Shown: positions 1 through 19,281, numbered from the stretch's first letter. The stretch is DNA of 64,000 nucleotides from Candidatus Lindowbacteria bacterium RIFCSPLOWO2_12_FULL_62_27 (GCA_001784175.1 MFPR01000013.1:1-64000), one strand, 5' to 3'. The notes: generated by a model not told the origin, from the letters alone. Translations and numbers: made by a program.

Positions 1-3000
1 CGCGGATTCGTGACGGATACGCAGGCCGGCGTCGTGACGCTGTCGCAGCCTGCGGACGGCCACGAGACGGCGGCGATCAATTTCTATGTGAGCTGGCAGG
101 CGACGGCCGACAGTGTGGGGATCGCCAACTACGCGGTGGAGGTCGACAAGAGCACGGCATTCACGACGATGATCTTCACCGACACGGTGGCGGGTGGCGT
201 CACGGCCGACCGTGTGACGGGTCTGTACAACGACACATACTACTGGCGCGTTCGCGCGATCGACGATCTGGGCAACGGCGGCGCCTATTCAGCGGCGCGC
301 GGGTTCGTGACGGACACGCTGGTCGCTGCCGTGACGCTGTCGCAGCCTGCGGACGGGCATGAGACGACGGCAACGACGGTACCGGTCAGTTGGACGGCCG
401 TGACGGACAGCGTCGGGATCGCCAACTACGCGGTGGAGGTCGCCAGGAACACGACGTTCACGACGATGGTCTTCACCGACACGGTGGCGGGCGGCGTCAC
501 GGCCGACACCGTCACGGGTCTGTACAACGACACGTACTACTGGCGCGTGCGTGTGATCGACGATCTGGGCAACAGCGGCGTGTATTCGGCGACACGAGGC
601 TTTATGACGGATACGCTGGTCCATGCCGTGACGCTGTCGCAGCCTGCGGACGGCCACGAGACAACGGCAACGACAGTGTCCGTCGGTTGGACGGCCGTGA
701 TGGACAGCGTAGGGATCTCCAACTACGCGGTGGAGGTCGCCAAGAACACGACATTCACGACGATGGTCTTCATTGACACCGTGGCGGGTGGCGTCACAGC
801 CGACACCGTCACGGGTCTGTACAACGACACGTACTACTGGCGCGTGCGTGTGATCGACGATCTGGGCAACAGCGGCGTGTATTCGGCGACACGAGGCTTT
901 ATGACGGATACGCTGGTCCATGCCGTGACGCTGTCGCAGCCTGCGGACGGCCACGAGACGGCGGCGATCAACCTCTATGTGAGCTGGCAGGCGGCGGCCG
1001 ACAGCGTTGGGATCGCCAACTACGCGGTGGAGGTCGACAAGAGCACGGCATTCACGACGATGATCTTTGCCGACACGGTGGCGGGCGGCGTCACGTCCGA
1101 CAGTGTGACGGGCCTGTACAACGACACGTACTACTGGCGCGTTCGCGCGACCGACGATCTGGGCAACAACGGCGCCTATTCGGCGACGCGTGGATTCGTG
1201 ACGGACACACGGGTCAACGCCGTAACGCTGTCTCAGCCGGCGGACGGCCATGAGACGACGGTCGCGACGGTGCCGGTCAGTTGGACAGCAGTGACGGACA
1301 GCGTGGGGATCGCCAACTACGCGGTGGAGGTCGCCAAGAACACGACGTTCACGACGATGGTCTTCACCGACACGGTGGCGGGCGGCGTCACGTCCGACAC
1401 GGTGACGGGTCTGTACAACGACACGTACTACTGGCGCGTGCGCGCGATCGACGATCTGGGCAACAGCGGCGTCCACTCGGCGACGCGGGGATTTGTGACG
1501 GACACGCAGGTCGCCGCCGTGACGTTGTCGCAGCCGGCGGACGGACATGAGACGACAGCGATCGATGTCCGGCTGAGCTGGCAGGCGCCGGCCGACAGCG
1601 TGGGGATCGCCAACTACGCGGTGGAGGTGTCGAAGAGCACGTCCTTCACGTCGATGGTGTTCACGGACACGGTGTCAGGCGGCGTTACCGCCGATACCGT
1701 TACCGGCCTGTACAACGACACGTATCACTGGCGCGTGCGTGCGATCGACGATCTGGGCAACAGCGGGACGTATTCAAGCGCCCGGGGATTCGTGACGGAC
1801 ACGCAGGTCGCCGCCGTGACGCCGGCACAGCCTGCGGATGGACATGAGACGGCGGTGATCGACATTCAGGTGAGCTGGTCAGCCGTGGCGGACAGTGTTG
1901 GGATCGCGAATTACGCCGTGGAGGTATCGAAGAGCACGTCTTTCACGACGATGACGTTCACGGACACGGTCGATGGGGCGCGTGGGAGCGACACGGTGAC
2001 GGGCCTCTACAACGACACGTACTACTGGCGCGTGCGCGCGATCGATGACCTGGGCAACAGCGGCGCCTATTCCACGGCCCGCGGCCTGATGGTGGACACG
2101 GCCGTGCGGAAGGTGACGCTCGCCGACCCGCCGCCGGGGTCGGTGACTGCTGATACCACGCCGACCCTCACTTGGACCGCGATCACGGACAGCGCAGGCG
2201 TCGATAGTTTTGCCATCGAAGTTTCAACCACAACCGGATTCACGGCCCTCAGCTTCGCCGACACGGTGGATGGACCGCTCACCAGCGGCGCCGTGACCCC
2301 CGGACTTGTCACTGACACCTATTACTGGCGCGTCCGCGCCTTTGACGTGCTGGGCAATGCCGGCGCCTGGTCGGATTCGTTCCGGCTGAGAATCGATACC
2401 GTCCAGACATCGATCACCCTGATCGGCCCGGCGGATGGACATGAGACCAATGCGGCCGCGGCACGATTCGTCTGGGCGGGCGCCAACGCAGATACCTACA
2501 CATGGCAGCTTTCCAAATCGTCCGCGTTTTCAACGCTGGTGGACGCGGTGGCCGGCACCACCGTCACGTCCATGAACCGGCCGATGCCCGATCCGGATAC
2601 GTTCTATTGGCTGGTCATCGCACAGGGTCTGACGGGGTACGACACATCCGCCGCGCGGGGAATCCTCCTCGACACCAGCGCTGGCCAGCCGGCCCTCCTG
2701 CAGCCGGCCGAGGGGCACGAAACGTCGAATGCAACCCCGCAGGTTACCTGGTCCGCCGTTTCGGACAGCGTCGGAATCGACAGCTACGCGCTGGAAGTCT
2801 CCAGGAACACGGCGTTCACGGCCATGTCGTTCGCCGACACGGTGGATGGCGGACTCACAAACGACACCCTGACCGGCCTCTACAACGACACGTATTATTG
2901 GCGCGTGCGCGTCGTCGACGATCTCGGCAACATCGGCATCCATTCGTCCATCCGTGGGTTTGTCGTCGACACGCACGTAAACACCGTGGCTCTGTCACAG

Positions 3001-6000
3001 CCGGCCGACGGGCACGAGACGACGAATGTGAGCGTGGGGGTGTCGTGGGCGGCGCTGACAGACAGCGTCGGGATCGATTCGTACGTGATAGAGGCGTCAA
3101 AGACGATCGCGTTTACGACGACCGTGTTTGCGGATACGACGGATGGGACAAGTACGGCGGATACAATCACGGGCCTGTACAATGACACGTACTACTGGCG
3201 CGTTCACGCGATCGATGATCTCGGCAACGCCGGCGCCGCCTCGGCCCCACGTGGATTTGTGACGGACACGCTCATCGATGCCGTCACGCTCTTGCTGCCG
3301 GCCGACGGCCACGAAACCCGCGCCGTCAATTTCCGCCTGAGCTGGAACGCCGTGCCGGACAGCGTCGGGATCGATTCTTACGCGATAGAGGCGTCAAAGA
3401 CGGGTGCGTTTACGACGACCGTGTTCTCGGATACTACGGATGGGACAAATACGACGGATACCATCACGGGCCTGTACAACGACACGTACTACTGGCGCGT
3501 GCGCGCGATCGACGATCTCGGCAACGGCGGGGCCTATTCGGCCGCGCGTGGGTTCCTGATCGACACCGGAGTTTCTCAGGTCACCGTTACGCAGCCCGCG
3601 GACGGCCACGAAACCACCGTGTCGAGCCTGGAGGTTGGCTGGGCCGCCATCACGGCGGATTCGTCAGGGATCGACTCCTACGTGCTGGAAGCCTCCAAGT
3701 CGAGCGCTTTCGGCGTCGTTATTTTCGCCGATACGGTGGACGGCGTCCGACTGAGCGACACGCTGGCCGGATTGTACAATGACACTTATTTCTGGCGCGT
3801 CCGGGCCGTCGACCACCTTGGCAATCTTGGCGCATTCTCGGCGGCGCGGGGATTTGTGACCGACACGCTCGTCGGACAGGTCAGCCTGCTCCTGCCGGCG
3901 GACGGCCACGAAACAGCCGTGGCCCAACCGGGTGTGCAGTGGACGGCGCTTCCGGACAGCGTCGGAATCGACTCGTATGCCGTGGAAGTCTCCAAGAGCC
4001 TGGCCTTCTCCCCCGTCGTCCTCGCCGATACGCTGGACGGGTCTTCGACGATGGATACTCTGCCGGGTCTCCAGAACGACACGTACTTCTGGCGCGTGCG
4101 CGCGATCGACGACCTCGGCAACGCCGGCGCCTACTCGGCCGCCCGCGGGCTGATCCACGACTCGCTGGCCGGCGCCGTCACGCCGGTGTCGCCGGCGGAC
4201 GGCCATGAAACGACCGCGACGAGCGTGGTGGTGTCATGGAGCGCCCTGAGCGACAGCGTCGGAATCGCCACGTACGCCGTGGAGGCGTCGCGTGGGTCGG
4301 CCTTCACATCGCTGGCATTCGCCGAAACCGTCGCCGGCAGCCGAACCAGCGACACGCTGGCCACGCTGTACAACGATACCTACTACTGGCGCGTCCGCGC
4401 GACGGACGGACTCGGCAACAACGGCGCGTATTCGGCCGCCCGCGGATTTGTGGTCGACACGGCGGTTGCGGTCGTGACGCTTTCGGCGCCCGCGGACGGC
4501 CATGAAACGACTGCGAGCGAAATTCTTCTGCGCTGGGCCTCCGTGTCCGACAGCGTCGGGATCGACAGCTACGCCGTGGAGGCTTCACGAAACGCCGCCT
4601 TCACGAACATGGTCTTCACCGACACCGTCGACGTCGCCCTCACGTCCGACACCGTGACCGGGCTGTACAATGACACCTGCTTCTGGCGTGTCCGGGCCAT
4701 CGACGATCTCAGCAACGCCGGCGCCTACTCGACCACGCACGGATTCGTGACCGACACGATTGTAAATCAGGTGGCGCTCCTGCTGCCGGCCGACGGGCAC
4801 GAGACATCCACCGTGAATTTCCGCCTGAGCTGGATCGCCGTCTCGGACAGCGTGGGCGTGGACAGTTACGCGCTCGAGATCTCAAAGATCTCGTCGTTCA
4901 CGCCGATGGCCTACGCGGATACCGTGGACGGCGTGACCATCACCGACACGTTCACGGGTCTGTACAACGACACGTACTTCTGGCGTGTCCGCGCGGTTGA
5001 CGATCTCGGCAACGGCGGCGTCTACTCGGCCGCGCGTGGTGTGCTGATCGACACGGCCGTGTCGCAGGTGACGGTTGCCGCTCCGGCCGACGGACACGAA
5101 ACGACGGCGGTCGCGGTCGTGCTGTCCTGGATTGCAGTGGCCTCCGATTCGAGCGGGATCGATTCCTATGTGGTGGAAGTTGCGAAGCAGATCGGATTCG
5201 ACACGACAGTTTTCGCCGACACGGTGAGGGCGTCCATCCTCGCCGATACGATCACCGGCCTGTATAATGACACCTACCACTGGCGGGTCCGCGTGATTGA
5301 TCACGTGGGCAATCTCGGCGTGTTCTCAATCACCCGGGGATTCCTGGTTGACACGGCCGTGGCGGCGGTGAGCCTGCTCCTGCCGGCCGACGGGCACGAG
5401 ACGTCCGCAACCGAGTTCCGCCTGCGCTGGAGCGCCGTGTCGGACAGCGCGGGCGTGGACAGTTACGCGCTCGAGATCTCAAAGAGCACGGCCTTCGCCC
5501 CGGTCACCTACGCGGACACCGTGGACGGATCGGCAACCGATGACACCATCACGGGCGTTTCCAACGACACGTACTTCTGGCGCGTGCGCGCGATCGATGA
5601 CCTCGGCAATGGCGGCGCCTATTCCGCGATCCGAGGGTTCATCGCCGACACCCTCGTCCAGACGGCCGTCGCTCTGGCGCCGGCGGACGGGCATGAGACG
5701 ACGGCCGGGCAGGTCGTGGTGAGCTGGTCGGCGGTGCCGGACAGCGTCGGGATCGCGAGCTACGCCGTGGAGGCCTCGAAGTCCGCCGCATTCTCGACAC
5801 TCGCGTTTTCCGACACGGTGGCCGGCGGCCTCACCAGCGATACGGTCACGGGCCTCTCCAATGACACCTATTACTGGCGCGTCCGGGTGACCGACGACCT
5901 CGGCAACGGCGGCGCCTATTCGACGGCGCGAGGCTTCGTGGTCGACACAACGGCCGCGCAGGTCAGCGCGCTCGCTCCGGCCAATGGCCACGAGACGACG

Positions 6001-9000
6001 GCGACCGCGATCGTCCTCTCCTGGTCAGCCGTGCCGGCCGACTCGGTCGGCATCGATTCGTATGCGGTCGAAGCCGCCCGGAACGCCGCATTCACGGCGA
6101 TGGTCTTCGCCGACACGGTCGATCAGGCGCTCACGGCCGACACGGTGACCGGCCTCTACAACGACATGTACTACTGGCGCGTCCGGGCCGTCGACGGCCT
6201 GGGCAACGCCGGCGCGGCGTCCACCCCCAGGGGATTCGTGGTCGATACGCAGGCCGCTCAGGTCAGCCTGTCATTGCCGTCGGACGGCCACGAGACAACC
6301 GCGACCTCCTTCCTCGTATCCTGGGCCGCCGTCGCGGACAGCGTCGGGATCGACAGCTACGCCCTCGAAGTCTCCAAGAGCGCCGCCTTCGGATCGATCG
6401 CGTATGCGGACACGGTGGGGGGCACGTCCCTCGCCGACACCATCGGGGCGCTGGACAACGACACGTACTTCTGGCGGGTCCGCGCGATCGATGACCTCGG
6501 CAACGTGGGCGCCCATTCAGCCGTGCGGGGCTTCCTCGTCGACACGGCCGTCGCGCAGGTTGCGCTCCTCTCGCCGGCCGACGCGCATGAGACGACCGCC
6601 GGCGCGCTGACGCTCAGTTGGTCGGCGATCGCGGCGGATTCGGTGGGCGTTGATTCCTATATTGTAGAAGTGGCGAAAACGCCGGCCTTCGCCACGACGA
6701 TCTTCGCTGACACGGTCGACGGGAGCCTCACGAGCGACGCCGTCACCGGCTTGTACAACGACACGTACTACTGGCGCGTCCGCGCGATCGACGAAGTCGG
6801 CAACGCCGGCGTCCATTCCGCCCCGCGGGGCCTCATGACCGACACTCTCGTCCAGACGGTATCCCTCGTCGCGCCGGCCGACGGGCATGAAACCACGGCA
6901 ACGCCGATCAGCCTCGCATGGGCCGCGCTGTCCGACAGCGTGGGTGTGGACAGTTTCGCCGTCGAGGTCTCCAAGAACGCTTCCTTCACCTCCATCGTCT
7001 TTGTCGACACGGTGGACGGCCAGGCGCTGTCGGATACCGTCACCGGACTGTACAACGACACGTACTTCTGGCGGGTGCGCGCCGTGGACGACCTCGGCAA
7101 CGGCGGCGCCTATTCGGCAACGCGCGGATTCCTGGTTGACACGGCCGTCGCCAAAGTGACGCTGGTCAGCCCGCCGGCCGGGACCCTGACCGGCGATACA
7201 ACGCCGACCCTTGTGTGGAACGCGGTCACAGACAGCGCGGGCGTCGATTCGTACGCGCTCGAAGTTTCGACGAGCTCTGCGTTCGCCGCGATCACATTCG
7301 CCGATACGGTCGACGCCGCGCTCACCGCCGATACGGCCGCGCCCGGGCTCGACTCCAACACCTATCACTGGCGCGTCCGGGCCATCGATGATCTGGGCAA
7401 CGTCGGCGCGCCCTCCGACTCGCTCCATTTCAGAATCGACACGACGCCAACCCTCGTGACGCTGCTCAGCCCCGCGGCCGGGCACGAAACAAACGCGGTG
7501 ACCGTCCGCTTCGAGTGGATCGCCACGAGCGTCGACACCTATACGTGGCAGCTCTCCAAGTCGCCTGCCTTCTCGACCATCGTGGATTCGGCGCCCGATA
7601 CGACGGCGACAACAGTCGTCAGAGTTCTCTCGCACGAGGATACCCTCTACTGGCGCGTCATCGGCCTCGGCATCGGCGGGTCCGACACGACGGCGGCCCG
7701 CGGCATTCTGCTCGACACGGGCGTTGCGGTGGCCGTGGCGGCAACGCCCGCCGACGCGCATGAAACCTCCGCGGCGGTTCCGGGCGTCGGCTGGCAGGCA
7801 CTGGCCGACAGTGTCGGGATCGACTCCTACGCCGTCGAGGTCTCCAAGTCCACCGCCTTTACGAACGTCGTGTTCGCCGACACGGTCGATGGAGTGCGCG
7901 TGTCCGACACGATTCCGGGCCTCCACAACGATACGTACTTCTGGCGCGTCCGGGCCATCGATGATCTCGGCAACGCCGGCGCCTACTCCGCCGCCCGCGG
8001 GTTCCTCGTTGACACGGTCGTCTCGCAGGTCGCGGCCGTCGCGCCCGCGGACGCGCACGAAACGGCCTCCGGGATGATCACCGTCGGCTGGACCGCGATC
8101 GCGGACAGCGTCGGGATTGATTCCTACGCAGTTGAAACCGCCAAGACCTCCGCGTTCGCAACGACCGTGTTTGCCGACACCGTCGACGGCTCGCAGACCG
8201 CCGACACCCTCACGGGCCTCTACAACGACACGCACTACTGGCGCGTGCGCGCGATCGACGATCTCGGCAACGCCGGCGCCGCCTCCGCCGCGCGTGGATT
8301 CCTCGTCGACACCGCCGTCACGCAGGTCGCGCTGGCCAGTCCCGCGGACGCGCACGAGACGACGGTCACGTCGGTCGTCCTTCAGGTTTCAGCCGTCACC
8401 GACAGCGTGGGGATCGATTCGTATGTCTTCGAAGCGTCGAAGACACCGGCGTTCTCGGCGATCGTCCTCGCCGACACCGTCGACGGCGCCGTCACGGCCG
8501 ACACGATCGCCGGCCTGTACAACGACACGTACTACTGGCGCGCGCGGGCGGTCGACGATCTCGGCAACGCCGGCGCCTATTCAACCGTGCGTGGATTCCT
8601 CGTCGACACGGCCGTCGCGCAAGTCGCGCTGGTGGCGCCGGCCGACGGGCATGAGACCGCCAACGCGTCGCCCGTGTTGAGCTGGTCGGCGGTGCCGGAC
8701 AGTGTGGGGATCGATTCGTATGTGATCGAGGCGTCGAAGACGGGTGTGTTTACGACGACCGTGTTTGCGGATACGACGGATGGGACAAATACGGCGGATA
8801 CAATCACGGGCTTGTACAATGACACCTATTTCTGGCGCGTGCGCGCGATCGACGACCTCGGTAATGCCGGCGCCTATTCCGCAACCCGCGGATTCCTGAT
8901 CGACACGCTCGTGTCGCAGGTCTCGCTGCTGCTGCCGGCGGACGGCCACGAAACAACCGCCGCGACGTTCCAGGTCCGGTGGAGCGCCGTGACCGCCGAT

Positions 9001-12000
9001 TCGGCGGGCATCGATTCGTATGCGATTGAGATTTCGCGCACGGCCGCGTTCACGGCCCTCACCCTCGCCGACACACTCGACGCGGCGCTGACGTCGGATA
9101 CGGCCGCCGGACTCGACAACGACAGCTACTTCTGGCGCGTCCGCGCGATCGACAACCTTGGCAACGCCGGCGCCTACTCCGCCGCGCGCGGATTCGTGGT
9201 CGACACGCGGACGGGCCAGCCGGCGCTGGTGGCGCCGGCGGACGCGCACGAGACATCCGCCGGATCGCTCCTCGTCCAGTGGGCGGCGCTCGCCGACAGC
9301 GTCGGGATCGACAGCTTCGCGGTGGAGGTGTCCAGGAACACGGCGTTCACGGCCCTCGCCGTTGCCGATACGCTGGCCGGCGACGCCACGACCGACACCC
9401 TGGCCGGCCTCTCGAGCGACACCTACTACTGGCGCGTCCGAGCGATCGACGATCTCGGCAACGCCGGCGCTTACTCCGCCGCCCGCGGATTCCTGATCGA
9501 CACCCTGGCCGCTCAGGTGACGCTCGCGGCGCCGGCCGACGCGCACGAGACGCGCGCCACCACGCTGGTCCTGACGTGGAACGCTGTGGCGGACAGTGTT
9601 GGGATTGATTCGTATGTGATCGAGGCGTCAAAGACGGGCGTGTTTACGACGACCGTGTTTGCGGATACGACGGACGGGACAAATACGGCGGATACAATCA
9701 CGGGCTTGTACAATGACACCTACTTCTGGCGTGTCCGCGCGGTCGACGATCTCGGCAATGCCGGCGCCCATTCCGCGTCGCGCGGGTTCCTGGTCGATAC
9801 CGCCGTCGACCAAGTCGCGACGATTTCGCCCGCGAACGCGCACGAGACATCCGTGGCGGCTGTCACGGTCCGCTGGTCGGCCCTGACAGCGGATTCCGTC
9901 GGTGTGGACTCCTACGCGGTGGAGGTTTCCAGGAATTCGGCTTTCGCTCCTCTGGTGTTCGACGATACGGTCGACGCGGCCTTCGCGTCTGACACGGTCA
10001 CGGGACTGTACAACGATACTTACTTCTGGCGCGTCCACGCCGTGGACCATCTCGGCAACGGCGGCGCATACTCCGCGACGGCCGGATTCCTCGTCGACAC
10101 CGCCGCAGCCAGGGTCTCGCTGGTCAGCCCGGCGACCGGATCGGTGACCTCCGACACGACGCCCGCCTTTACCTGGAACACGGTCGCGGACAGCGTCGGG
10201 GTCGACAGTTACGTCATTGAGGTTTCCGCCGGCCCCGCGTTCGCCACGATCGCCTATGCCGACACGGAAGACGGAGCCGCAGGCGCCGACACGGTCACGC
10301 CAGGACTCAACCCGGGACTCTATTATTGGCGTGTCTCCACGGTCGACGACCTGGGCAACCGCAGCGTTCCGTCGGACTCCTTCACGCTCCTCGTCGACAC
10401 CGCCCTGCCCGTCATCGCGCTCTTGAAGCCGTCTTCCGGCCACGAAACCAACACGCCGGCGATCCTGTTCGAGTGGATGGGTGACAACGCTGAAACCTAT
10501 ACGTGGCAACTGTCCAACACCATCGGCTTTTCGGCCGTCCTCGATTCCGTGGTCGACACGATCGGCACATCCGTCGTGCGGACGTTGCCGGCGCAGGACA
10601 CGTTCTACTGGCGCGTGATCGCAAAGAGCATCGTCGGCCTGGTCGATACCTCGACCGTGCGCGGGTTCGTTCTCGATACATCCGTGGCCCAGATCGCATC
10701 AAGCCTGCCGGCGGATGGGCATGAGACGTCCAACGCCGCACCGCGGGTCTCCTGGCTGGCCGTGTCGGACAGCGTTGGCATCGATTCCTACGCGATCGAG
10801 GCCTCCAAGACCGCCGCGTTCGCCGCGATTGTGTTCGCCGACACAATCGACGGCGCCCTCACGGCCGACACGATCACCGGATTGCACAACGACACGTACT
10901 TCTGGCGCGCCCGCGCGATCGACGACCTCGGCAACGGCGGCGCCTACTCCGCCGCCCGCGGATTTGTGCTCGATACCTTCACGGCGGCAGTCTCGGCAAC
11001 GGCGCCGGCCGACGCGCATGAGACGTCCAACGCAACGCCGACGGTCTCGTGGCTGGCCGTGCCGGACAGCGTGGGCATCGATTCCTACGCGATCGAGGCC
11101 TCCAAGACGGCCGCGTTCGCCGTGCTCGTGTTCGCCGACACGATCGACGGCGCCCTCACGTCCGGCACGATCACGGGACTGCACAACGATACGTACTTCT
11201 GGCGCGTCCGCGCGATCGATGACCTCGGCAACGCCGGCGCCCACTCGCAGGCCCGCGCCTTCCTCGTCGACGACACGGCCGCCAAGGTCTCGCTCGCGTC
11301 GCCCGCCTCCGGGACGATCACCGGCGACACGACGCCGTCGCTCGCTTGGACGGCGGTGACCGACAGCGTCGGCATCGACTCCTACGCGCTCGAACTCTCC
11401 GCCGGCCCCGCCTTCTCGACCCTCGCCTTCGCCGACACGGTCGATGGCGCGCGCACGTCCGATACGGTCCTGCCGGGCCTCCCGATGGATACCTACTTCT
11501 GGCGCGTGCGTGCGATCGACGATCTCGGTAATCGCGGGCCTGCGTCCGACTCATTCGTCATCCGCGTCGACACTTCGCCCACGCTCGTGACGCTCGTCCG
11601 CCCGGCCGCCGGACATGAGACGCGCGCGGCCACGGTGCGATTCGAGTGGACCGCCCTCAATGCCGACACCTATACCTGGCAGCTCTCTCGCACGGCCGCC
11701 TTTACGGCGCTCGCCGATTTCGTCACCGACACCACCGACACGTTCCTCGTCCGGACCCTGCCGGGAGAGGACACGTTCTTCTGGCGCGTGATCGGCCTTG
11801 GGGTTGGCGGGTACGACACCGCGTCGGCCCGCGGACTCCTGCTCGACACTTCGACCCGCCAAGTCACGCTCCTCGCGCCGGGCGACGGCCATGAGACCTT
11901 CAACGCCCTCGTGGTCGCAAGCTGGACCGCTCCGGCCGACAGCGTCGGCATCGACACCTACGCGCTTGAGGTTTCCAGAAGCCAGGCCTTCTCGCCGCTG

Positions 12001-12150
12001 ACGTTCACCGACACGGTCGACGCGTCGATGACTTCCGCCACGCTGCTCGGCCTCTATAACGATACCTACTACTGGCGCGTGCGGGCGATCGACCTCCTCG
12101 GCAACGAGGGCGCATTCTCGGCCGCACGCAAGATCGTGACGCTCGACACC
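1..12150 (+). repeat. About 41 tandem coding repeats of about 297 bp
   Basis: Direct tandem repeats lie inside the giant gene. The spacing is 297 bp between the copies around 534 and 831, where more than 100 bases match almost exactly (535-660 against 832-957). Copies near the 5' end of the window are much more alike at DNA level than those after about base 5000. Some distant copies share short, nearly identical patches (see findings). Confidence 0.93.
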
Positions 12151-13839
12151 TCCGCCGGGCGCGTCCGCCTCTCCACACCGGCCGCCCAGCCCGCGGACAT
12201 GACCGCGCAGGACCTCGACACGCGCGCCATCGCGGTATTCGCCGTGGGCGTCGACACCAAGGAAGCCGTCTTCATCAGCCGTGTCCGCGTGACGCACCAG
12301 GGCGCCATGCCGGCGGCCCGGATCGAGCAGGCCTTCCTCTACCGCGACGCGGGACCGGCGCCGGCCGCGCTGGACGCGCAGGACACGCTGTTCGCGTCGG
12401 GAACATTCTCCGGCGATGCCGCCGATCTTTCCGGCGCGCCCTTCAAGATCGCCGCGGGCGAAACCGAATCGCTTCTCCTCGTCTACCGTTTCGCCGCCGG
12501 CCTCGCCGAAGGCGACACGTTCCTCGCGCAGATCGCCGCAAACGCCGATCTGACCGGCGCCGGCCTCGTGTCCAACTCGGCGCCGCAGATTACCGGCGCG
12601 CCGCTCGCCTCCGGCGTCTTCACGGTCCGCGCCCGATATCCGGCGGTCGTGTCCGTCAATCCGCCCAACGGCGCCTTCTTCCTGCCGCCGCAGGACGAAA
12701 CCGGGATCCTGCCCCTGCGCGTCAGGTTCAACGTCCCGGTCGATCCCGCCAGCGTGACGACTTCGACGGTCCGCCTCCTCGACGCCAACGGCATCAGCCG
12801 GACCGACTCCGTCTTCTTCGAGGACAGCCGGACGGTGCGGATCACGGCCGTGTACGCGGACACCGAATGGCCCTACGGCGCTGACTTCTCGATTCGCGTC
12901 AGCACCTCCGTCAAGGACGAGGACGCGCCGGCCGACTCGGTCCAGACCGAGTTTGTATCGACCTTCCAGACGCTGCAGAAGGCCGAGGCCGAGCAGATCG
13001 TGGTGTCCTCCGACAGCAAGGCGACCCTGAAGATCGATTCGGGAGACATCGACCCGTCCGTCAAGGGCATCGTGGTGACGGTCGTCATCCCGACTTCGGA
13101 CGACACCGTCCTCGGCCGGGCCCTCAACGCCGTCAAGTCCAACCCTTATCTTGAAATGCTGCCCGAGGAATTCGCGATTTACGATTACAAGATCCGCAAG
13201 CGCGACACCAACGACACGCGGGCGCTCGTGAAGCTCTCCGAATCCGAATTCCGCAATCCCGTCGACGTCGTCATGACCGTCCGGAAGCCCACCGCCTACC
13301 TCGAGGTCAAGGGCACACCGCTCAGCTTCCGGCATCTGAAACTCGCGCATTACAACGAGGAGTCCGGGCTCTGGGAAGTCATCGAAGGCGCGACCCTCGA
13401 GGACCACGGAAACACCGTCGCGATCAAGGGGCCGACCAAGACCTTCTCCCTCTTCGGCGTCTTCTTCGCTTTCGCGCCGACCTCCGTGGGAGAAACCTTC
13501 AAGTCGTTCCCGAACCCGGCCGATCCGTTTACTACCTACACCAACGCGGCCGGCCAGTCCTGGCAGGGATTCCAGTTCGGGTGGAACATGCCGAAGGCCG
13601 GCGTCGTCACGATCCGCATCTTCGACTTCGCCGGCCAGGAGGTCCGCACGATCGGGCCGACCGCCTACGCGGCCGGCAACCTGTTCGGCGACAACGCGAC
13701 GCTGGCCGCGCGCGTGTGGGACGGCCGCAACGGCCGCGGCCAGGTGGTGCTCAATGGCGCTTACTTCGTGTTCGTGGAAATCCGCTACAACGACGGCACC
13801 GTCGAGCGGGCCACGGACAGAATCGCGGTGGTGAAATGA
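1..13839 (+). CDS. Giant fibronectin-III-like repeat surface protein (5' end outside window)
   Basis: The frame is open from base 1 and ends at TGA 13837-13839, giving about 4612 visible residues; the true start lies upstream. Up to about base 12150 it consists of about 41 tandem modules of about 99 residues. Each begins with a PADGHET-type motif and contains NDTYYWRVRAIDDLGN, the strand pattern typical of FnIII-like beta sandwiches. Four positions hold a variant pair of modules (from about 2105, 7150, 10110 and 11280). A non-repeat region follows, then a bacterial Ig-like segment (about 12640-12970), and the C-terminus (about 13490-13839) resembles a FlgD-Ig/type-IX sorting domain, with WDGRNGRGQ and NGAYFVFVEI. 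I infer a secreted or cell-surface adhesin or stalk protein. The signal peptide is off-window. The stop overlaps the start of the PorV-like gene, suggesting co-expression. The exact function is unknown. Confidence 0.9.
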   Translation, partial: RGFVTDTQAGVVTLSQPADGHETAAINFYVSWQATADSVGIANYAVEVDKSTAFTTMIFTDTVAGGVTADRVTGLYNDTYYWRVRAIDDLGNGGAYSAARGFVTDTLVAAVTLSQPADGHETTATTVPVSWTAVTDSVGIANYAVEVARNTTFTTMVFTDTVAGGVTADTVTGLYNDTYYWRVRVIDDLGNSGVYSATRGFMTDTLVHAVTLSQPADGHETTATTVSVGWTAVMDSVGISNYAVEVAKNTTFTTMVFIDTVAGGVTADTVTGLYNDTYYWRVRVIDDLGNSGVYSATRGFMTDTLVHAVTLSQPADGHETAAINLYVSWQAAADSVGIANYAVEVDKSTAFTTMIFADTVAGGVTSDSVTGLYNDTYYWRVRATDDLGNNGAYSATRGFVTDTRVNAVTLSQPADGHETTVATVPVSWTAVTDSVGIANYAVEVAKNTTFTTMVFTDTVAGGVTSDTVTGLYNDTYYWRVRAIDDLGNSGVHSATRGFVTDTQVAAVTLSQPADGHETTAIDVRLSWQAPADSVGIANYAVEVSKSTSFTSMVFTDTVSGGVTADTVTGLYNDTYHWRVRAIDDLGNSGTYSSARGFVTDTQVAAVTPAQPADGHETAVIDIQVSWSAVADSVGIANYAVEVSKSTSFTTMTFTDTVDGARGSDTVTGLYNDTYYWRVRAIDDLGNSGAYSTARGLMVDTAVRKVTLADPPPGSVTADTTPTLTWTAITDSAGVDSFAIEVSTTTGFTALSFADTVDGPLTSGAVTPGLVTDTYYWRVRAFDVLGNAGAWSDSFRLRIDTVQTSITLIGPADGHETNAAAARFVWAGANADTYTWQLSKSSAFSTLVDAVAGTTVTSMNRPMPDPDTFYWLVIAQGLTGYDTSAARGILLDTSAGQPALLQPAEGHETSNATPQVTWSAVSDSVGIDSYALEVSRNTAFTAMSFADTVDGGLTNDTLTGLYNDTYYWRVRVVDDLGNIGIHSSIRGFVVDTHVNTVALSQPADGHETTNVSVGVSWAALTDSVGIDSYVIEASKTIAFTTTVFADTTDGTSTADTITGLYNDTYYWRVHAIDDLGNAGAASAPRGFVTDTLIDAVTLLLPADGHETRAVNFRLSWNAVPDSVGIDSYAIEASKTGAFTTTVFSDTTDGTNTTDTITGLYNDTYYWRVRAIDDLGNGGAYSAARGFLIDTGVSQVTVTQPADGHETTVSSLEVGWAAITADSSGIDSYVLEASKSSAFGVVIFADTVDGVRLSDTLAGLYNDTYFWRVRAVDHLGNLGAFSAARGFVTDTLVGQVSLLLPADGHETAVAQPGVQWTALPDSVGIDSYAVEVSKSLAFSPVVLADTLDGSSTMDTLPGLQNDTYFWRVRAIDDLGNAGAYSAARGLIHDSLAGAVTPVSPADGHETTATSVVVSWSALSDSVGIATYAVEASRGSAFTSLAFAETVAGSRTSDTLATLYNDTYYWRVRATDGLGNNGAYSAARGFVVDTAVAVVTLSAPADGHETTASEILLRWASVSDSVGIDSYAVEASRNAAFTNMVFTDTVDVALTSDTVTGLYNDTCFWRVRAIDDLSNAGAYSTTHGFVTDTIVNQVALLLPADGHETSTVNFRLSWIAVSDSVGVDSYALEISKISSFTPMAYADTVDGVTITDTFTGLYNDTYFWRVRAVDDLGNGGVYSAARGVLIDTAVSQVTVAAPADGHETTAVAVVLSWIAVASDSSGIDSYVVEVAKQIGFDTTVFADTVRASILADTITGLYNDTYHWRVRVIDHVGNLGVFSITRGFLVDTAVAAVSLLLPADGHETSATEFRLRWSAVSDSAGVDSYALEISKSTAFAPVTYADTVDGSATDDTITGVSNDTYFWRVRAIDDLGNGGAYSAIRGFIADTLVQTAVALAPADGHETTAGQVVVSWSAVPDSVGIASYAVEASKSAAFSTLAFSDTVAGGLTSDTVTGLSNDTYYWRVRVTDDLGNGGAYSTARGFVVDTTAAQVSALAPANGHETTATAIVLSWSAVPADSVGIDSYAVEAARNAAFTAMVFADTVDQALTADTVTGLYNDMYYWRVRAVDGLGNAGAASTPRGFVVDTQAAQVSLSLPSDGHETTATSFLVSWAAVADSVGIDSYALEVSKSAAFGSIAYADTVGGTSLADTIGALDNDTYFWRVRAIDDLGNVGAHSAVRGFLVDTAVAQVALLSPADAHETTAGALTLSWSAIAADSVGVDSYIVEVAKTPAFATTIFADTVDGSLTSDAVTGLYNDTYYWRVRAIDEVGNAGVHSAPRGLMTDTLVQTVSLVAPADGHETTATPISLAWAALSDSVGVDSFAVEVSKNASFTSIVFVDTVDGQALSDTVTGLYNDTYFWRVRAVDDLGNGGAYSATRGFLVDTAVAKVTLVSPPAGTLTGDTTPTLVWNAVTDSAGVDSYALEVSTSSAFAAITFADTVDAALTADTAAPGLDSNTYHWRVRAIDDLGNVGAPSDSLHFRIDTTPTLVTLLSPAAGHETNAVTVRFEWIATSVDTYTWQLSKSPAFSTIVDSAPDTTATTVVRVLSHEDTLYWRVIGLGIGGSDTTAARGILLDTGVAVAVAATPADAHETSAAVPGVGWQALADSVGIDSYAVEVSKSTAFTNVVFADTVDGVRVSDTIPGLHNDTYFWRVRAIDDLGNAGAYSAARGFLVDTVVSQVAAVAPADAHETASGMITVGWTAIADSVGIDSYAVETAKTSAFATTVFADTVDGSQTADTLTGLYNDTHYWRVRAIDDLGNAGAASAARGFLVDTAVTQVALASPADAHETTVTSVVLQVSAVTDSVGIDSYVFEASKTPAFSAIVLADTVDGAVTADTIAGLYNDTYYWRARAVDDLGNAGAYSTVRGFLVDTAVAQVALVAPADGHETANASPVLSWSAVPDSVGIDSYVIEASKTGVFTTTVFADTTDGTNTADTITGLYNDTYFWRVRAIDDLGNAGAYSATRGFLIDTLVSQVSLLLPADGHETTAATFQVRWSAVTADSAGIDSYAIEISRTAAFTALTLADTLDAALTSDTAAGLDNDSYFWRVRAIDNLGNAGAYSAARGFVVDTRTGQPALVAPADAHETSAGSLLVQWAALADSVGIDSFAVEVSRNTAFTALAVADTLAGDATTDTLAGLSSDTYYWRVRAIDDLGNAGAYSAARGFLIDTLAAQVTLAAPADAHETRATTLVLTWNAVADSVGIDSYVIEASKTGVFTTTVFADTTDGTNTADTITGLYNDTYFWRVRAVDDLGNAGAHSASRGFLVDTAVDQVATISPANAHETSVAAVTVRWSALTADSVGVDSYAVEVSRNSAFAPLVFDDTVDAAFASDTVTGLYNDTYFWRVHAVDHLGNGGAYSATAGFLVDTAAARVSLVSPATGSVTSDTTPAFTWNTVADSVGVDSYVIEVSAGPAFATIAYADTEDGAAGADTVTPGLNPGLYYWRVSTVDDLGNRSVPSDSFTLLVDTALPVIALLKPSSGHETNTPAILFEWMGDNAETYTWQLSNTIGFSAVLDSVVDTIGTSVVRTLPAQDTFYWRVIAKSIVGLVDTSTVRGFVLDTSVAQIASSLPADGHETSNAAPRVSWLAVSDSVGIDSYAIEASKTAAFAAIVFADTIDGALTADTITGLHNDTYFWRARAIDDLGNGGAYSAARGFVLDTFTAAVSATAPADAHETSNATPTVSWLAVPDSVGIDSYAIEASKTAAFAVLVFADTIDGALTSGTITGLHNDTYFWRVRAIDDLGNAGAHSQARAFLVDDTAAKVSLASPASGTITGDTTPSLAWTAVTDSVGIDSYALELSAGPAFSTLAFADTVDGARTSDTVLPGLPMDTYFWRVRAIDDLGNRGPASDSFVIRVDTSPTLVTLVRPAAGHETRAATVRFEWTALNADTYTWQLSRTAAFTALADFVTDTTDTFLVRTLPGEDTFFWRVIGLGVGGYDTASARGLLLDTSTRQVTLLAPGDGHETFNALVVASWTAPADSVGIDTYALEVSRSQAFSPLTFTDTVDASMTSATLLGLYNDTYYWRVRAIDLLGNEGAFSAARKIVTLDTSAGRVRLSTPAAQPADMTAQDLDTRAIAVFAVGVDTKEAVFISRVRVTHQGAMPAARIEQAFLYRDAGPAPAALDAQDTLFASGTFSGDAADLSGAPFKIAAGETESLLLVYRFAAGLAEGDTFLAQIAANADLTGAGLVSNSAPQITGAPLASGVFTVRARYPAVVSVNPPNGAFFLPPQDETGILPLRVRFNVPVDPASVTTSTVRLLDANGISRTDSVFFEDSRTVRITAVYADTEWPYGADFSIRVSTSVKDEDAPADSVQTEFVSTFQTLQKAEAEQIVVSSDSKATLKIDSGDIDPSVKGIVVTVVIPTSDDTVLGRALNAVKSNPYLEMLPEEFAIYDYKIRKRDTNDTRALVKLSESEFRNPVDVVMTVRKPTAYLEVKGTPLSFRHLKLAHYNEESGLWEVIEGATLEDHGNTVAIKGPTKTFSLFGVFFAFAPTSVGETFKSFPNPADPFTTYTNAAGQSWQGFQFGWNMPKAGVVTIRIFDFAGQEVRTIGPTAYAAGNLFGDNATLAARVWDGRNGRGQVVLNGAYFVFVEIRYNDGTVERATDRIAVVK

Positions 13840-16800
13840 GTAGCTCGATGCGGTTCCGCCGGATCCTGATCGCGGCCCTCGGTCTCGGCCTCGCCGTCCT
13901 CTCCGTCCGCCCGCCCGTTGCGCTGGCCGGTGCCCAGTCCGGCGGCGTGGTCGATCCCAGCGCGGTCCTCGGATTCGGCACGCGCGCCGGCGCCATGGGC
14001 AACGCCTTCGTCGCGCTCGGGGACGACGCCACGGCTGTCTTCTGGAACCCCGCCGCGCTCGATCTCAGCCGCCGCAAGGAAATCTTCGGCCAGTACTCGC
14101 AGGCATTCTTCGACAAATCATCCTACAACCTCGTCGCCTACAAGCATCCGCTCGGGCGCTTTGGCACCGTCGGCGGAGGCCTCATCATCGAGGGCGTCCA
14201 GGACCTGACCCGGCGCGACGTCAACGCGGCCAACATCGGAAACTTCAACGTCAACAAGACCAATCTCATGTTCAGCTATGGCAAAGAAGTGGTCGAAGGC
14301 TTCTATCTCGGCTCGACCCTCCGCGTCCTCCGCCAGCAGATCGCCGAGTTCTCCGGCACAGGCGTCGGCCTCGACGTCGGAACGCTCTACCGCTTCACCA
14401 ACCGCTACGTCGAATACAGCCGCGCGTATCTCCGGCTCGCGCGCGAGCAGATCCGCCAGGACGCCGAACGCGAGTTCTCGCTCGGCCGGCGCGCAAACGA
14501 GAGCGGCCACTCCAACGGCCACGCGATGGCCGAGTTCCTCAAGACCCACGGTCAGAACGGCGCACTGCGCGATCTGCGCCTGTGGTTCGACGAGGGCGTC
14601 AAACTTTACGACGCCGGTCGCATCAAGGACGCCGTGCCCTTCTTCGAGGCTGTCATTCGCAACGCGCGCGCCAACCTCCTGACCGACCGGCTCGCGCTCG
14701 GACTCAATATTCAAAACCTCCTGCGGCCGTCCCTCAAGCTCAAGAGCACGGCCGACCGCGTGCCGACCATCTTCAAGTTCGGCAGCGCCTACCGGATCGC
14801 CGACTGGTTCAACCTTGCGCTCGATCTCGACGTGCCGTCCAAAGGCGACCACCGCGTCCACTTCGGCGCCGAATGGAAACCCATCGAGTGGCTCGCGGTC
14901 CGCGCCGGGCTTGACCACAAGGACCCGACCTTCGGGTTCGGGTTCCGGTACCAGGACCTCAAGATCGACTACTCCTTCACGCCGTCCGACGACCTCGACA
15001 ACGACTTCCAGCGCGTCGGCATCTCGTACGAGTTCGGCAAATCTCACGGCGATGTCGCGGTTGAGCGCATCCAGCGCGGCCTCACGCTCCAGTCACGCAG
15101 GGAATACTCGTCCGCCAGGCAGGAATGGGAAAGCGCGCAGAAACTCCAGCCGACCAATCCGCTGCCCCGCCGATACATCCAGGAGACCGAAGAGGCCTAT
15201 CGCAAGAACGTCACCGAACCGTGGTCGGCCGCCGAACGGCTCGTCGCCGCGGGCCGGCTCTCGGAGGCGCATCCGATCCTGCAGGCCATCCTCACGTTCG
15301 ACCCGGCATTCGATCCGGCCCTCAAGGCGATGGGGTCCCTCAAGGCTGCCGTTCCGGCCTACGCCGAGTCCCACTTCAACGCCGGCTACCTGAAATATCT
15401 CCAGAACGATTATGTCTCCGCCCTCGAAGAGATGACCCACGTCCTCTTCTTCGTGCCCGAGCACGCCTCCGCCCGGCAGTATCGCGACGCCGCTCGAAAA
15501 CGCTCGGACGAGGAGGCCGGCCGCGCGGCCACGCGCGAACTCTTTGACGACGCCGTCCGGTCGTACCGCGCCGGCCGCTGGCCCGACGCGCTCTCGCGAT
15601 TCCAGGCGGTCCTCCGCCGCGATCCGACCCACGCCTCGGCCGGCGGATTCCTCGACCAGATCGCGCAGTTCCAGGCCGCGGACTTCAGCCCCGAGGAGAG
15701 AAAACTCGAATCGGACCGATTCTTCCGAATCGCACAGGCCGACTTCCTCGACGATCACACCATCGAAGCCGAACAGGCCGTGTCCAACAGCCTCTCCCTC
15801 TGGCCGGACAACGCCGACGCGCAGAATCTCCTCACGCGCATCGAGGCCATGCAGAACCGCATTCTCCTCGGCGCGCTCCAGGCCGCGGACGAGCGCATGG
15901 ACAGAGGCGACATCGACGCGGCCGTCGCCGGATGGCGGCGGGTCCTCGACAAGTCCCCGCGCAATTTCGACGCCATGCGCAGGCTCGAACGGCACGTGGA
16001 CGACATCCGCGCGTTCGTCGAGGCCAGTCTCCGCCTCGCCGAACGGCTCGAAAAGGACGGCGCGCTGGTCGACGCGCTCAAGCTCTACAACCGCGTCCTC
16101 GCGGTCGATCCCTTCAACGCCGCCGCGGCAGAGCGGCGCGCCGCGGTCCGGCCGGCGATCCTCTCCAAACTCGAGAGGATCTATCAGGACGCCGAGTCGC
16201 TCTACCGCTCGGGAGAGCTTGAAAGGTCCATGGCCCTCCTCTCCGACCTCATGGCCATTGACCCCGATTTGACACAGGCGCGGGACCTCAAGGAGATCGC
16301 ACGCGAGAAATTCGAGCTCAACGTCTCGCTCGTGCGCGTCAAGCGCCTCTACAACGAGGGCCTCGAATTTTTCCGCCAGCGCAACTACGAGCAGGCCGTC
16401 GCCACATGGCGGCAGATCGTCGCCCAGCCGACCGACCTGCCCGAGGTCCGGGACCTCGCGCAGGAGGCCGCCGCGCGGATCGCCGAGGCTGTCCGCGAGG
16501 CCGAACGCGAGCGCGCCGCGTCCTTCTACGACGAATATCTCCGCCGCGGCGACGCCTTCCTCGCCGAGGGCCGGGATGTCGAGGCGCTGGAGGCGTTCAA
16601 GTCCGCTCAGGAGCTTCAGCCCGAAAATGTCAGCATCCAGTGGCGGATCGCGACGGCCAAAAAATCCGTCGAGGATCGCCTCGCCGCATGGGTCCGCCAG
16701 GGAACGGAGGCCTTCGAACTCGGGCGACTCGACGACGCCGAGTCCCTCTTCCGCGCCGCCGTCCATGTCGATCCGGACCGCGCCGACGCCCTCGCGGGCA

Positions 16801-17324
16801 TCGATCGCGTTCTGGCGGCGCGCAGCGCGGCCGCGGCGGCCGCGGCGCCCCCGGCGCCGGCCGAGGAACCCGCCGCGCCGGTCGAGACGCGCGAGACTCC
16901 GAAACCGCCCGACACCCGCGACCGCATCGACCGCATCCTCGCGCGCGCGGCGGACCTCCGCCGCAAGGCCGCGGCCGTCGAGCAGAGCCGGCCGGACCTC
17001 GCGCTCAGCAGAGCCAAAAACGCGCTCGAGGCCTGCCGCGAAGCCCTCCGGATCGACGCGGCAAACGAAGTCGCCCGGCAGGTGCAGTCGGCCGTCACCG
17101 CCGACATCGCGCGGCTCCAGAAGGTCCTCAAGGAGAAAAACGCGGCTGACATCCAGAAGTTCCTCTACTCCGGCATGGGCCACTACCGCGCCGGCCGGCT
17201 CAACGAAGCCATCGCCGACTGGAACCGCGTCCTGTCCCTCGACGCGGACCACGCGCAGGCCCGCGAGTACATCCGCCGCGCCGAGAAAAAACTCGAATTG
17301 TTGAACGCCCCCGAAGCGCCGTGA
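13836..17324 (+). CDS. PorV/UPF0164-like outer-membrane barrel fused to TPR repeats
   Basis: The start ATG 13836 overlaps the preceding TGA; a second in-frame ATG lies at 13848. The product has 1162 residues. An N-terminal signal peptide (about residues 5-32) is followed by a segment with GFGTRAGAMGNAFVALGDD and ATAVFWNPAAL, the hallmark of PorV/PorQ/UPF0164 outer-membrane barrels, to about residue 395. An amphipathic helical/TPR stretch (about residues 188-285, including FDEGVKLYDAGRIKDAVPFF) is inserted inside the barrel region. From about residue 400 to the end there are many TPR-like helices, broken near residues 995-1030 by an Ala/Pro-rich linker. In type IX systems PorV shuttles cargo to the surface; here the adjoining giant protein is the obvious candidate cargo (inference). 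The TPR part probably faces the periplasm as a protein-binding scaffold. Confidence 0.82.
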   Translation: MSSSMRFRRILIAALGLGLAVLSVRPPVALAGAQSGGVVDPSAVLGFGTRAGAMGNAFVALGDDATAVFWNPAALDLSRRKEIFGQYSQAFFDKSSYNLVAYKHPLGRFGTVGGGLIIEGVQDLTRRDVNAANIGNFNVNKTNLMFSYGKEVVEGFYLGSTLRVLRQQIAEFSGTGVGLDVGTLYRFTNRYVEYSRAYLRLAREQIRQDAEREFSLGRRANESGHSNGHAMAEFLKTHGQNGALRDLRLWFDEGVKLYDAGRIKDAVPFFEAVIRNARANLLTDRLALGLNIQNLLRPSLKLKSTADRVPTIFKFGSAYRIADWFNLALDLDVPSKGDHRVHFGAEWKPIEWLAVRAGLDHKDPTFGFGFRYQDLKIDYSFTPSDDLDNDFQRVGISYEFGKSHGDVAVERIQRGLTLQSRREYSSARQEWESAQKLQPTNPLPRRYIQETEEAYRKNVTEPWSAAERLVAAGRLSEAHPILQAILTFDPAFDPALKAMGSLKAAVPAYAESHFNAGYLKYLQNDYVSALEEMTHVLFFVPEHASARQYRDAARKRSDEEAGRAATRELFDDAVRSYRAGRWPDALSRFQAVLRRDPTHASAGGFLDQIAQFQAADFSPEERKLESDRFFRIAQADFLDDHTIEAEQAVSNSLSLWPDNADAQNLLTRIEAMQNRILLGALQAADERMDRGDIDAAVAGWRRVLDKSPRNFDAMRRLERHVDDIRAFVEASLRLAERLEKDGALVDALKLYNRVLAVDPFNAAAAERRAAVRPAILSKLERIYQDAESLYRSGELERSMALLSDLMAIDPDLTQARDLKEIAREKFELNVSLVRVKRLYNEGLEFFRQRNYEQAVATWRQIVAQPTDLPEVRDLAQEAAARIAEAVREAERERAASFYDEYLRRGDAFLAEGRDVEALEAFKSAQELQPENVSIQWRIATAKKSVEDRLAAWVRQGTEAFELGRLDDAESLFRAAVHVDPDRADALAGIDRVLAARSAAAAAAAPPAPAEEPAAPVETRETPKPPDTRDRIDRILARAADLRRKAAAVEQSRPDLALSRAKNALEACREALRIDAANEVARQVQSAVTADIARLQKVLKEKNAADIQKFLYSGMGHYRAGRLNEAIADWNRVLSLDADHAQAREYIRRAEKKLELLNAPEAP

Positions 17325-17355
17325 TAGGCTCTGATCCAGGAGGTGCGACGACGCC

Positions 17356-18918
17356 ATGCGGCTGCCTTTGAAGGCGAAATTCAGCGGGTTGGTCCTCGGC
17401 CTGGTCATGGTCATCCTCGTCTCCATCTGGACCCTCAGCGTCTATGAGCAGTCCAAGATGGAGCGATCGATCGCCGAACAGCAGCGGTCCACCATGCGGG
17501 ACGAACTCACCAAACGCGCAACCAATATCCTCGCGTTTCTGTCCGCTAACAGCGAGGCCCTCGCTATCGGCGATTACCTCACGGTCGACGCCTTCGTCCG
17601 TGATCTCTCCACGAGCCCCGACATACGGTTTATCCATATCGTCAAGGACGGCCGGCTGATCGTCCCGCTTCAGGACGGCGCGCCGCCCCGGTATCAATTG
17701 CCGCGCGGCGTCAAGCCGGCCGGCGGCGCCATGCACTTCGAAATGGTCGATGGCGCCGGCGTCGATTCCGAGCCGCTCATCATCGTGTCCGGACCCATCG
17801 TCGACAAAACCATCCGGCGCCGTGTCGCGGAGGCCTACGTCGGCATTTCGAGACTGCCCGTGCGCGACGCCATCGAGTCGGCCCAGGCGCGCGTCAAGGA
17901 GTCCGGCCGGATCGCCCGGTACGAGTTCACCTTCGCCACCCTCCTCTTTGCGATCCTCGGCGTGGTCGGGTCCGTCATCCTGGTCGCATTTGTCCTGCGG
18001 CCGATCAACATCCTCACCCGCGGCGCCAAAATCATCGGCCAGGGGAATCTCAACCACGAGGTCGTCGTGCGGACCAATGATGAAATCGGCGACCTCGCGC
18101 ATACCTTCAACGTCATGACTCGCAACCTTCGCGAGGATCAAGTCAAGCTCATCGAAAAACAAAAGCTCGAACAGGAAATAAAAATCGCCATGCAGATCCA
18201 GCAGACCCTCCTCCCCAAGTCGCTCCCCAACGCGCCCGGATACAGTTTCGGCGCCGTCTACGGCGGCGCCCGCGAGGTCAGCGGCGACTATTACGACTTC
18301 CTGGATATCCGGTCCAACGGCCGGCCACGCATCGGTGTCGTGGTCGCCGACGTCGCCGGCAAAGGCATCCCCGGCGCTTTCATGATGGCCGTTACGCGCA
18401 GCATCCTCCGCGCGCAGGCGCCCGTCTCTGATTCCCCCGCGCAGGTCCTCAAACTGACCAACGGCATCCTTCAGCCCGACCTGAAAAAGGGAATGTTTGT
18501 CAGCATGGTCTACGGAATCCTGGACGTTCAATCCGGTCACATGGAATTGAGCAGCGCGGGGCATTGCCCGTCCCTCGTGTACCGCGCCGGCTCCGGCTCG
18601 GTCGAGACGGTGCGCTGCAAGGGCATCGCGCTGGGGATCGGCGCTGCGCAGTTGTTCGAGCGGCGCATTGAATCCAAGACGGTGCCGCTGGCGCCCGGCG
18701 ACATTTTTTTTCAGTACACAGACGGCATTCAACATGCTATGAATATAGAGGAGAACCGTTTTGGGATGGACCGGCTCATGGCCTGTCTTCGCGAGTTCAA
18801 CCCGGGAGACGCCCAGTCCCTGGTGGCCCGCATCCTTGAGCGGATCAACTCATTTACGGCCGGATTTCCGCAGTTCGACGATATCACCATGGTCGCCATC
18901 AAGCGGGACCGGGCATAG
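17356..18918 (+). CDS. Membrane HAMP-PP2C (SpoIIE/RsbU-type) serine phosphatase
   Basis: 520 residues; ATG 17356 has a strong Shine-Dalgarno GGAGGTG at 17339-17345. One membrane helix (about residues 7-29), an extracytoplasmic sensor segment and a second helix (about 193-217) lead into a HAMP linker (about 218-265) and a short coiled coil. The SpoIIE-type PP2C domain (about 270-520) retains its metal-binding signatures: SGDYYDF, VVADVAGKG, FQYTDG and FDDITMV. RsbU-type enzymes dephosphorylate a STAS antagonist protein, and the next gene encodes one, so this is probably the input phosphatase of a partner-switching cascade sensing a periplasmic signal. It lies 31 bases after the PorV-like gene. 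Confidence 0.92.
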   Translation: MRLPLKAKFSGLVLGLVMVILVSIWTLSVYEQSKMERSIAEQQRSTMRDELTKRATNILAFLSANSEALAIGDYLTVDAFVRDLSTSPDIRFIHIVKDGRLIVPLQDGAPPRYQLPRGVKPAGGAMHFEMVDGAGVDSEPLIIVSGPIVDKTIRRRVAEAYVGISRLPVRDAIESAQARVKESGRIARYEFTFATLLFAILGVVGSVILVAFVLRPINILTRGAKIIGQGNLNHEVVVRTNDEIGDLAHTFNVMTRNLREDQVKLIEKQKLEQEIKIAMQIQQTLLPKSLPNAPGYSFGAVYGGAREVSGDYYDFLDIRSNGRPRIGVVVADVAGKGIPGAFMMAVTRSILRAQAPVSDSPAQVLKLTNGILQPDLKKGMFVSMVYGILDVQSGHMELSSAGHCPSLVYRAGSGSVETVRCKGIALGIGAAQLFERRIESKTVPLAPGDIFFQYTDGIQHAMNIEENRFGMDRLMACLREFNPGDAQSLVARILERINSFTAGFPQFDDITMVAIKRDRA

Positions 18919-18933
18919 GAGCGAGGTGTAAAC

Positions 18934-19281
18934 ATGGAATTCAAAGTGGAGGTCGGGCCGGCGTCCTGGAAGCCGGACATCACCGTCATCAAACTCTTTG
19001 GATCCGTCGACGCCCAGACCGCGCCGCTGTTTGAAAAAGAGGCGATGGCGGCGGTCGGCAAGGGCAAGAAAAAGGTTTTGGTGGATTGCGCCGGTCTCGA
19101 TTTCATTTCCAGCGCGGGCATCGGCGTCTTTATGGTGATCCTGAGCGAAGTCGAGGCCGAGGGATTCCTCAGGGTGATGAATCTTTCCGACGAGGTCTAC
19201 GAATCGTTTGAAATTCTGGGAATCAACGAGGTCATGGAGATCTACAAGGATGAAAAAGACGCCCGGCGCGCCATCGCCTGA
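18934..19281 (+). CDS. STAS-domain anti-sigma factor antagonist (RsbV/SpoIIAA-like)
   Basis: 115 residues, ATG 18934 preceded by GGAGCGAGGTG. It is a single STAS domain with the core DCAGLDFISSAGIGVFMV; the serine pair in FISSAGIG is where family members are phosphorylated by the HATPase kinase and dephosphorylated by the PP2C partner. It lies between the phosphatase gene and the kinase gene, and its 3' end overlaps the kinase start by 32 bases, suggesting translational coupling and controlled stoichiometry. The target of the switch (sigma factor or another effector) is not in the window. Confidence 0.93.
   Translation: MEFKVEVGPASWKPDITVIKLFGSVDAQTAPLFEKEAMAAVGKGKKKVLVDCAGLDFISSAGIGVFMVILSEVEAEGFLRVMNLSDEVYESFEILGINEVMEIYKDEKDARRAIA

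Follow-up and report, generated by a model that had tools for sequence, protein, structure and literature searches.

The giant gene at the start of this locus raises the question of why two particular modules should stand next to each other, always in the same order, at four irregularly spaced points of a long array of otherwise ordinary repeats, and whether such pairs are recent copies, passive leftovers or functional parts of the encoded fibre. The window referred to below is the whole 64,000-nucleotide stretch of Candidatus Lindowbacteria bacterium RIFCSPLOWO2_12_FULL_62_27 that was analysed.

Organization of the giant gene

The window opens in a frame that runs from 1 to 13839 and encodes 4612 amino acids; it is open at its 5' side and lacks its N-terminus, since the window start is also the end of a contig in a source genome of 4.39 Mb on 44 contigs. 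When the missing N-terminal part was sought, none of the contig ends exceeded an identity to the first modules of about 74% in protein or 79% in DNA. Contigs of this genome often break within such repeat arrays (the window at position 1 and the ends of contigs C9, C13 (right), C14, C15, C22, C32 and C38), so that true module counts may exceed those seen. An apparent frame break in a paralogous array on contig 15 was traced to an assembly gap, which had been translated as X.

Module boundaries set at the opening motif, P..HET or P..G(S/T)(V/L/I)T, divide the frame into 41 fibronectin-III-like modules of about 100 residues each, arranged in the series o7 AB o15 AB o8 AB o2 AB o1, where o denotes ordinary modules and A and B two special types (Table 1). 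This cutting confirms the four special pairs at the sites given in the original prediction, each an A type followed directly by a shorter B type of 92-93 residues, and the predicted block sizes of at least 7, 15, 8 and 2 ordinary modules are exact, with one more module after the last pair. All four B modules directly follow an A, compared with a mean of 0.4 and a maximum of 3 such cases in 20,000 shuffles of the same modules. The first seven o modules share a mean nucleotide identity of 80%, which rises to 94% for the pair o02/o03. The fibronectin type III profile (PF00041) scores 235.5 bits over the whole giant protein (cut-off 25), while single A and o modules fall below the cut-off and B modules give no match.

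Table 1. Features of the giant gene and its downstream neighbour (window coordinates)
Feature	Position	Strand	Basis or remark
o block, at least 7 modules	1..2127	+	truncated by contig end; mostly recent tandem copies
A-type, pair 1	2128..2427	+	motif cut, identity comparison, tree
B-type, pair 1	2428..2703	+	motif cut, identity comparison, tree
o block, 15 modules	2704..7170	+	motif cut
A-type, pair 2	7171..7470	+	motif cut, identity comparison, tree
B-type, pair 2	7471..7746	+	motif cut, identity comparison, tree
o block, 8 modules	7747..10128	+	motif cut
A-type, pair 3	10129..10428	+	motif cut, identity comparison, tree
B-type, pair 3	10429..10707	+	motif cut, identity comparison, tree
o block, 2 modules	10708..11301	+	motif cut
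A-type, pair 4	11302..11601	+	motif cut, identity comparison, tree
B-type, pair 4	11602..11877	+	motif cut, identity comparison, tree
Final single o module	11878..12177	+	motif cut
C-terminal region: Big_5 and final FlgD/T9SS-CTD-like domain	12178..13839	+	profile matches
Downstream gene: signal peptide-like start, PorV/PorQ family domain, TPRs	13836..17324	+	ATG inside the giant gene's stop (ATGA overlap)

Module order in other genes and a second genus

A genome search with one B module showed that about a dozen other giant frames contain B modules as well. Order was counted in loci picked by their B matches and in corresponding frames of a second genome (G002, of the same family but another genus, with contigs that match the groundwater MAG NC_groundwater_1274), using models of A, B and o that were trained on the window alone and then applied to other genes of both genomes. 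Among the other genes of the source genome, the transitions comprised 128 oo, 16 oA, 14 AB, 22 Bo, 2 oB and 1 BA, and in G002 29 oo, 13 oA, 9 AB, 12 Bo, 2 oB and 1 BA. Retrained models gave 26 AB transitions outside the window (shuffled mean 6.5, maximum 16 in 20,000), no Ao transition (shuffled mean 21.9) and 35 Bo transitions; as retraining draws its labels from the same genes that it scores, the window-trained count is the cleaner test. Two of the exceptional predecessors of B that were labelled o read as A-like, wholly in locus L018 and partly in L015. An A profile run against the whole genome yielded 18 matches of at least 127 bits, all within the loci already studied and none outside them; the next module is B in 16 of these (one a weak B), b-like (a further class described below) in one, and absent at the end of the array in one. 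In the two genomes compared, the order rule is thus conserved across two genera at the sequence level, and a third genome of the phylum (G001) contains no B modules and a single weak o match. Order rules of this kind could persist without selection.

The ends of the arrays follow a related pattern. At least nine arrays open with B, placed behind either a signal-peptide-like start or a long stretch of unrelated N-terminal sequence; one array, L024, opens with o, and A is the last module in five G002 arrays. Because B opens arrays and A closes some of them, an internal A-B pair is read most simply as the end of one block plus the start of the next. Arrays of the source genome mostly end in o, that of the window included, which rules out a general end-cap role for A. 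The runs of o modules between B and A number 1 (eight times), 2 (five times), 3 (four times), 5, 6, 8, 8, 11 and 15, and block lengths of 1 to 15 with no fixed period likewise rule out a fixed super-repeat or molecular ruler. The likely orthologues L009 and L059 carry the same terminal string of 11 modules (ooABoABooAo, window-trained labels) and C-terminal tails that match at 8e-90, while their inner o modules no longer align position by position; L019 and L061 have the end A-B-A in common.

Age and inheritance of the pairs

The four pairs of the window had been described as identical, which they are not: protein identity is 50-65% among the A modules and 47-59% among the B modules, while o modules reach 94%. 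At third codon positions, identity is 49% for A and 46% for B, near the background of about 41% between the dissimilar classes A and B and far from the 88% of the recent copies o2/o3, indicating that the A-B pairs are old.

A tree of 171 modules was built from classes A, B, o and b, the last being 91-residue modules found in long arrays of other giant genes. Each class lies on one side of a single branch (support 81-98), and A, B and o each span both genera; many inner forks are not resolved because the modules are short. Within the window, A's and B's are each nearest to their own class, with A35 as the exception. Genome-wide this relationship is not exclusive, and the window's A's and B's are scattered among those of other genes and of the other genus: W_B09 lies nearest to a B of another gene, and W_A25 nearest to an A of G002. 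The outcome that the original prediction named as refuting it, pairs that are not each other's closest relatives, is thus obtained in part. The B's that come first in their arrays form no group of their own, requiring 8 changes on the tree for 9 modules, and are fully mixed with internal B's.

Distances over 23 o-A-B-o stretches show which modules diverged together. A and B distances are correlated (Mantel r 0.38, p 0.0002), also by ranks and with near-copies removed (p 0.002-0.019), while neither A nor B correlates with either flanking o (p 0.14-0.60). Between the two flanking o modules there is a correlation (r 0.32, p 0.009), which homogenisation of o modules within a gene would lead one to expect. 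Since A and B co-diverge without the flanking o modules, these sequence comparisons show a two-module pair, not a larger block, to be the inherited unit.

The same data bear on the proposal that the four pairs arose when blocks of several modules were recently duplicated. A and B identities are slightly higher within than between genes (57 versus 53% for A, 54 versus 50% for B), as such duplication would predict, but silent sites near background, flanking modules that are not co-inherited and the mixed placement in the tree largely refute it as judged from the sequences, leaving recent block copying a very improbable origin.

Sequence and structural features of A and B

Relative to o, A no longer has HE and RG (positions 5-6 and 84-85), has gained DTTP and shows a changed EF loop, with BC, C and F remaining nearly o-like. 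In B, o-like N- and C-terminal segments enclose a different core, most of the BC loop is missing and the FG loop is shortened; the class-specific conserved residues of B include YTWQLS, and 11 of its columns are invariant. When loops were grouped by pole, using standard FN3 topology and the strands of an AlphaFold model of o7-A8-B9-o10, A was found to depart from o at its C-pole loops (0.35 versus 0.11 bits, p 3e-4) and B at its N-pole loops (0.57 versus 0.30 bits, p 0.011). Each type is thus altered, as far as sequence and assumed topology tell, on the pole turned toward the other, and the outer poles are o-like. The acidic residues D21 and D72 are nearly invariant in o and A modules (97-100%); B has lost D21 and retains D72 in 54% of cases. 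The loop missing from B thus carries an acidic residue that almost every other module retains. The linker into B has 8 residues in 15 of 29 cases, a length seen in none of 258 other junctions; in the window, all four A-B linkers have the common length of 9.

The core of B resembles class b, and B and b are neighbours in the tree; B may have arisen from a b module that acquired o-like ends. Arrays of b modules occur in the source genome and in Candidatus Hydrogenedentota (L047 and L048), and a PorV-family-like gene follows b arrays too; they are uniform, whereas B is single and has o-like ends. Giant genes composed of uniform 91-residue b modules include L025, L064 and L026 (contigs C40, C44 and C6 of the source genome, G000). 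A separate subfamily of o modules, with 10-residue linkers and often Q for E in HET, is found in L010 (about 13688-18109) and L012 (8444-12979), whose modules cluster and which may be two halves of one gene.

Structure prediction of a pair and its neighbours, also suggested originally, returned four beta sandwiches. The AlphaFold2 model of o7-A8-B9-o10, computed with 26 related stretches, has a mean pLDDT of 93.0 and a pTM of 0.64, compared with 91.5 and 0.69 for an ordinary four-module control, a pTM gap between models too small to decide flexibility. Foldseek and VIA-align 2 matched the pair model to fibronectin, LAR and the Aureispira grappling-hook protein GhpA. Five GhpA chain fragments superpose on the four-module model at about 7.5 Å, with 312-322 residues aligned (Z 12.8-13.6), and four-domain fibronectin fragments lie at 12-16 Å (Z 14-15); a common fold with either protein shows no function. 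A profile search of PDB sequences gave as its only match a weak one to the FN3 domain of the bacterial chitinase A1, and the GhpA sequence was not matched. To our knowledge, no two-module junction rule has been described for GhpA.

C-terminal tail and export context

The tail of the giant protein matches Big_5 at 24.7 bits (cut-off 23.6) and FlgD_ig at 25.1 bits, slightly short of the required 27. The T9SS type A sorting domain TIGR04183 (cut-off 23) finds no match in this tail and is passed by the paralogues L010 (30.8) and L009 (23.2). The product of the next gene has a PorV/PorQ family domain (116.7 bits, cut-off 90) with TPRs behind it, and close relatives of this gene adjoin two paralogous giant genes with the same tail on contigs C9 and C38. 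For SprA/Sov, the genome gave a single partial match (E 6e-20) whose 69.9 bits fall short of the cut-off of 200, and a search for GldM/PorM gave no match, with control genomes equally silent. Taken at the level of sequence, this context makes T9SS-like export of the giant protein likely, and the protein is probably exported to the surface.

T9SS-CTD-like matches occur at 32 places in the source genome (e.g., C2:54861-55280 and C40:24895-25299), some of them in open frames of 22,286 and 10,454 residues; giant proteins are numerous in this genome. In the window, the PorV-TPR gene is followed at 17356-22044 by two SpoIIE-phosphatase genes, one with HAMP and one with HATPase_c_2.

Possible roles of the pair

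The explanation favored here, held with about even confidence, is that the A-B pair is a specialised joint that divides a rod of FN3-like modules, carrying a T9SS-like tail, into blocks. Each block of this long rod would consist of one B and then 1 to about 15 o modules, and would end in one A when another block comes next, A-B being end plus start. Between junctions, recombination of the o modules with one another would add, remove and homogenise them, as their identity pattern suggests. A would keep an o-type face toward its own block and present an altered face to B, and B would combine o-type ends with a different core and with loops shortened toward A, so that the A-B contact would form a joint of different geometry, probably freer than the uniform o-o contacts. 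The loss of D21 and often of D72 from B may lie behind the freer joint, as these positions could hold calcium elsewhere. The joint would split a stiff fibre into rod segments, and a T9SS-like route, with the PorV-like protein of the adjacent downstream gene as partner, would export and anchor the fibre. The hinges or joints of the original prediction are supported in that the pair is a unit and its changes fall at the A-B contact, as expected of a special joint; the joint itself, its greater flexibility and a role of calcium are what we infer from the sequences. In a more specific form, the end-of-block and start-of-block modules would act as punctuation and as a built-in hinge free of the acidic loop contacts that stiffen the other junctions, a version put forward only tentatively, as somewhat doubtful.

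The main rival, a possible but not a probable account, is passive retention: A and B would be old and too unlike o to recombine with it, and crossovers between o modules would carry whole pairs along. Such a process accounts for the joint inheritance of A and B and for flanking o modules that turn over independently of them, it fits the recent o-o copies and the variable block lengths of the window, and the nucleotide identities of 58% between A and o and 51% between B and o are low for homologous recombination. By itself, however, it leaves unexplained that B opens arrays after unrelated domains and that A and B depart from o on mutually facing poles, and these two observations favor a structural role without proving it. 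Rather unlikely is a capping or adaptor function, in which B would connect any preceding domain to an o rod and A an o rod to any following domain, the pair being two fused cassettes with no special mechanics. The first position of B, the last position of A in G002 and the o-like outer poles of both types would suit such adaptors, but the o endings of most source-genome arrays imply that an array can end without A as its cap. Lateral binding, by which the pairs would dock another chain or protein in the way that titin super-repeat boundaries serve MyBP-C, is unlikely: distinct conserved modules do recur at intervals, and B has its class-specific residues, but the spacing is irregular and no partner emerged.

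Comparison with known systems

Several known proteins resemble parts of this arrangement. GhpA of Aureispira is a T9SS-secreted protein that forms grappling hooks (PMC11205867); it is likewise a chain of beta sandwiches, with an overall arrangement closer to the model than that of four-domain fibronectin, and T9SS-type export is suggested here as well, but it belongs to a different phylum and no sequence match to it was found. SprB-type adhesins are T9SS-exported cell-surface proteins (PMC11205867), comparable to the present large, probably surface-exported protein with its T9SS-like C-terminal domain, although the C-terminus of the latter gives no sorting-domain match. The A-band super-repeats of titin have a fixed length and have been modelled as recursive block duplication (PMC10665226). 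The giant FN3 chain described here similarly contains distinct module classes in a higher-order arrangement, with modules alike by position, but both the fixed multi-module period and whole-block duplication fail, as block length varies and only A and B co-diverge. SiiE of Salmonella and the RTX adhesins are T1SS-exported rods stiffened by calcium (PMC6272769, PMC7493085). They share the plan of a giant rod of repeated beta-sandwich modules, and the conserved acidic residues of o and A may likewise sit where modules meet; no special module pair like A-B is reported for them in these two sources.

Implications

A family of giant tandem-repeat proteins thus keeps a strict order, B first and A then B, in different genes and genera even as the bulk of its modules is exchanged. 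If the hinge reading is true, fibre shape would be encoded as a series of rod lengths, open to editing by recombination in each gene with the joints left intact. The family also offers a natural test system for the mechanics of joint versus rod, in which o-A-B-o can be compared with o-o-o-o at about 390 residues each. More broadly, these findings draw attention to a little-known lineage that is rich in giant proteins linked to T9SS-like export through adjoining PorV-family genes.
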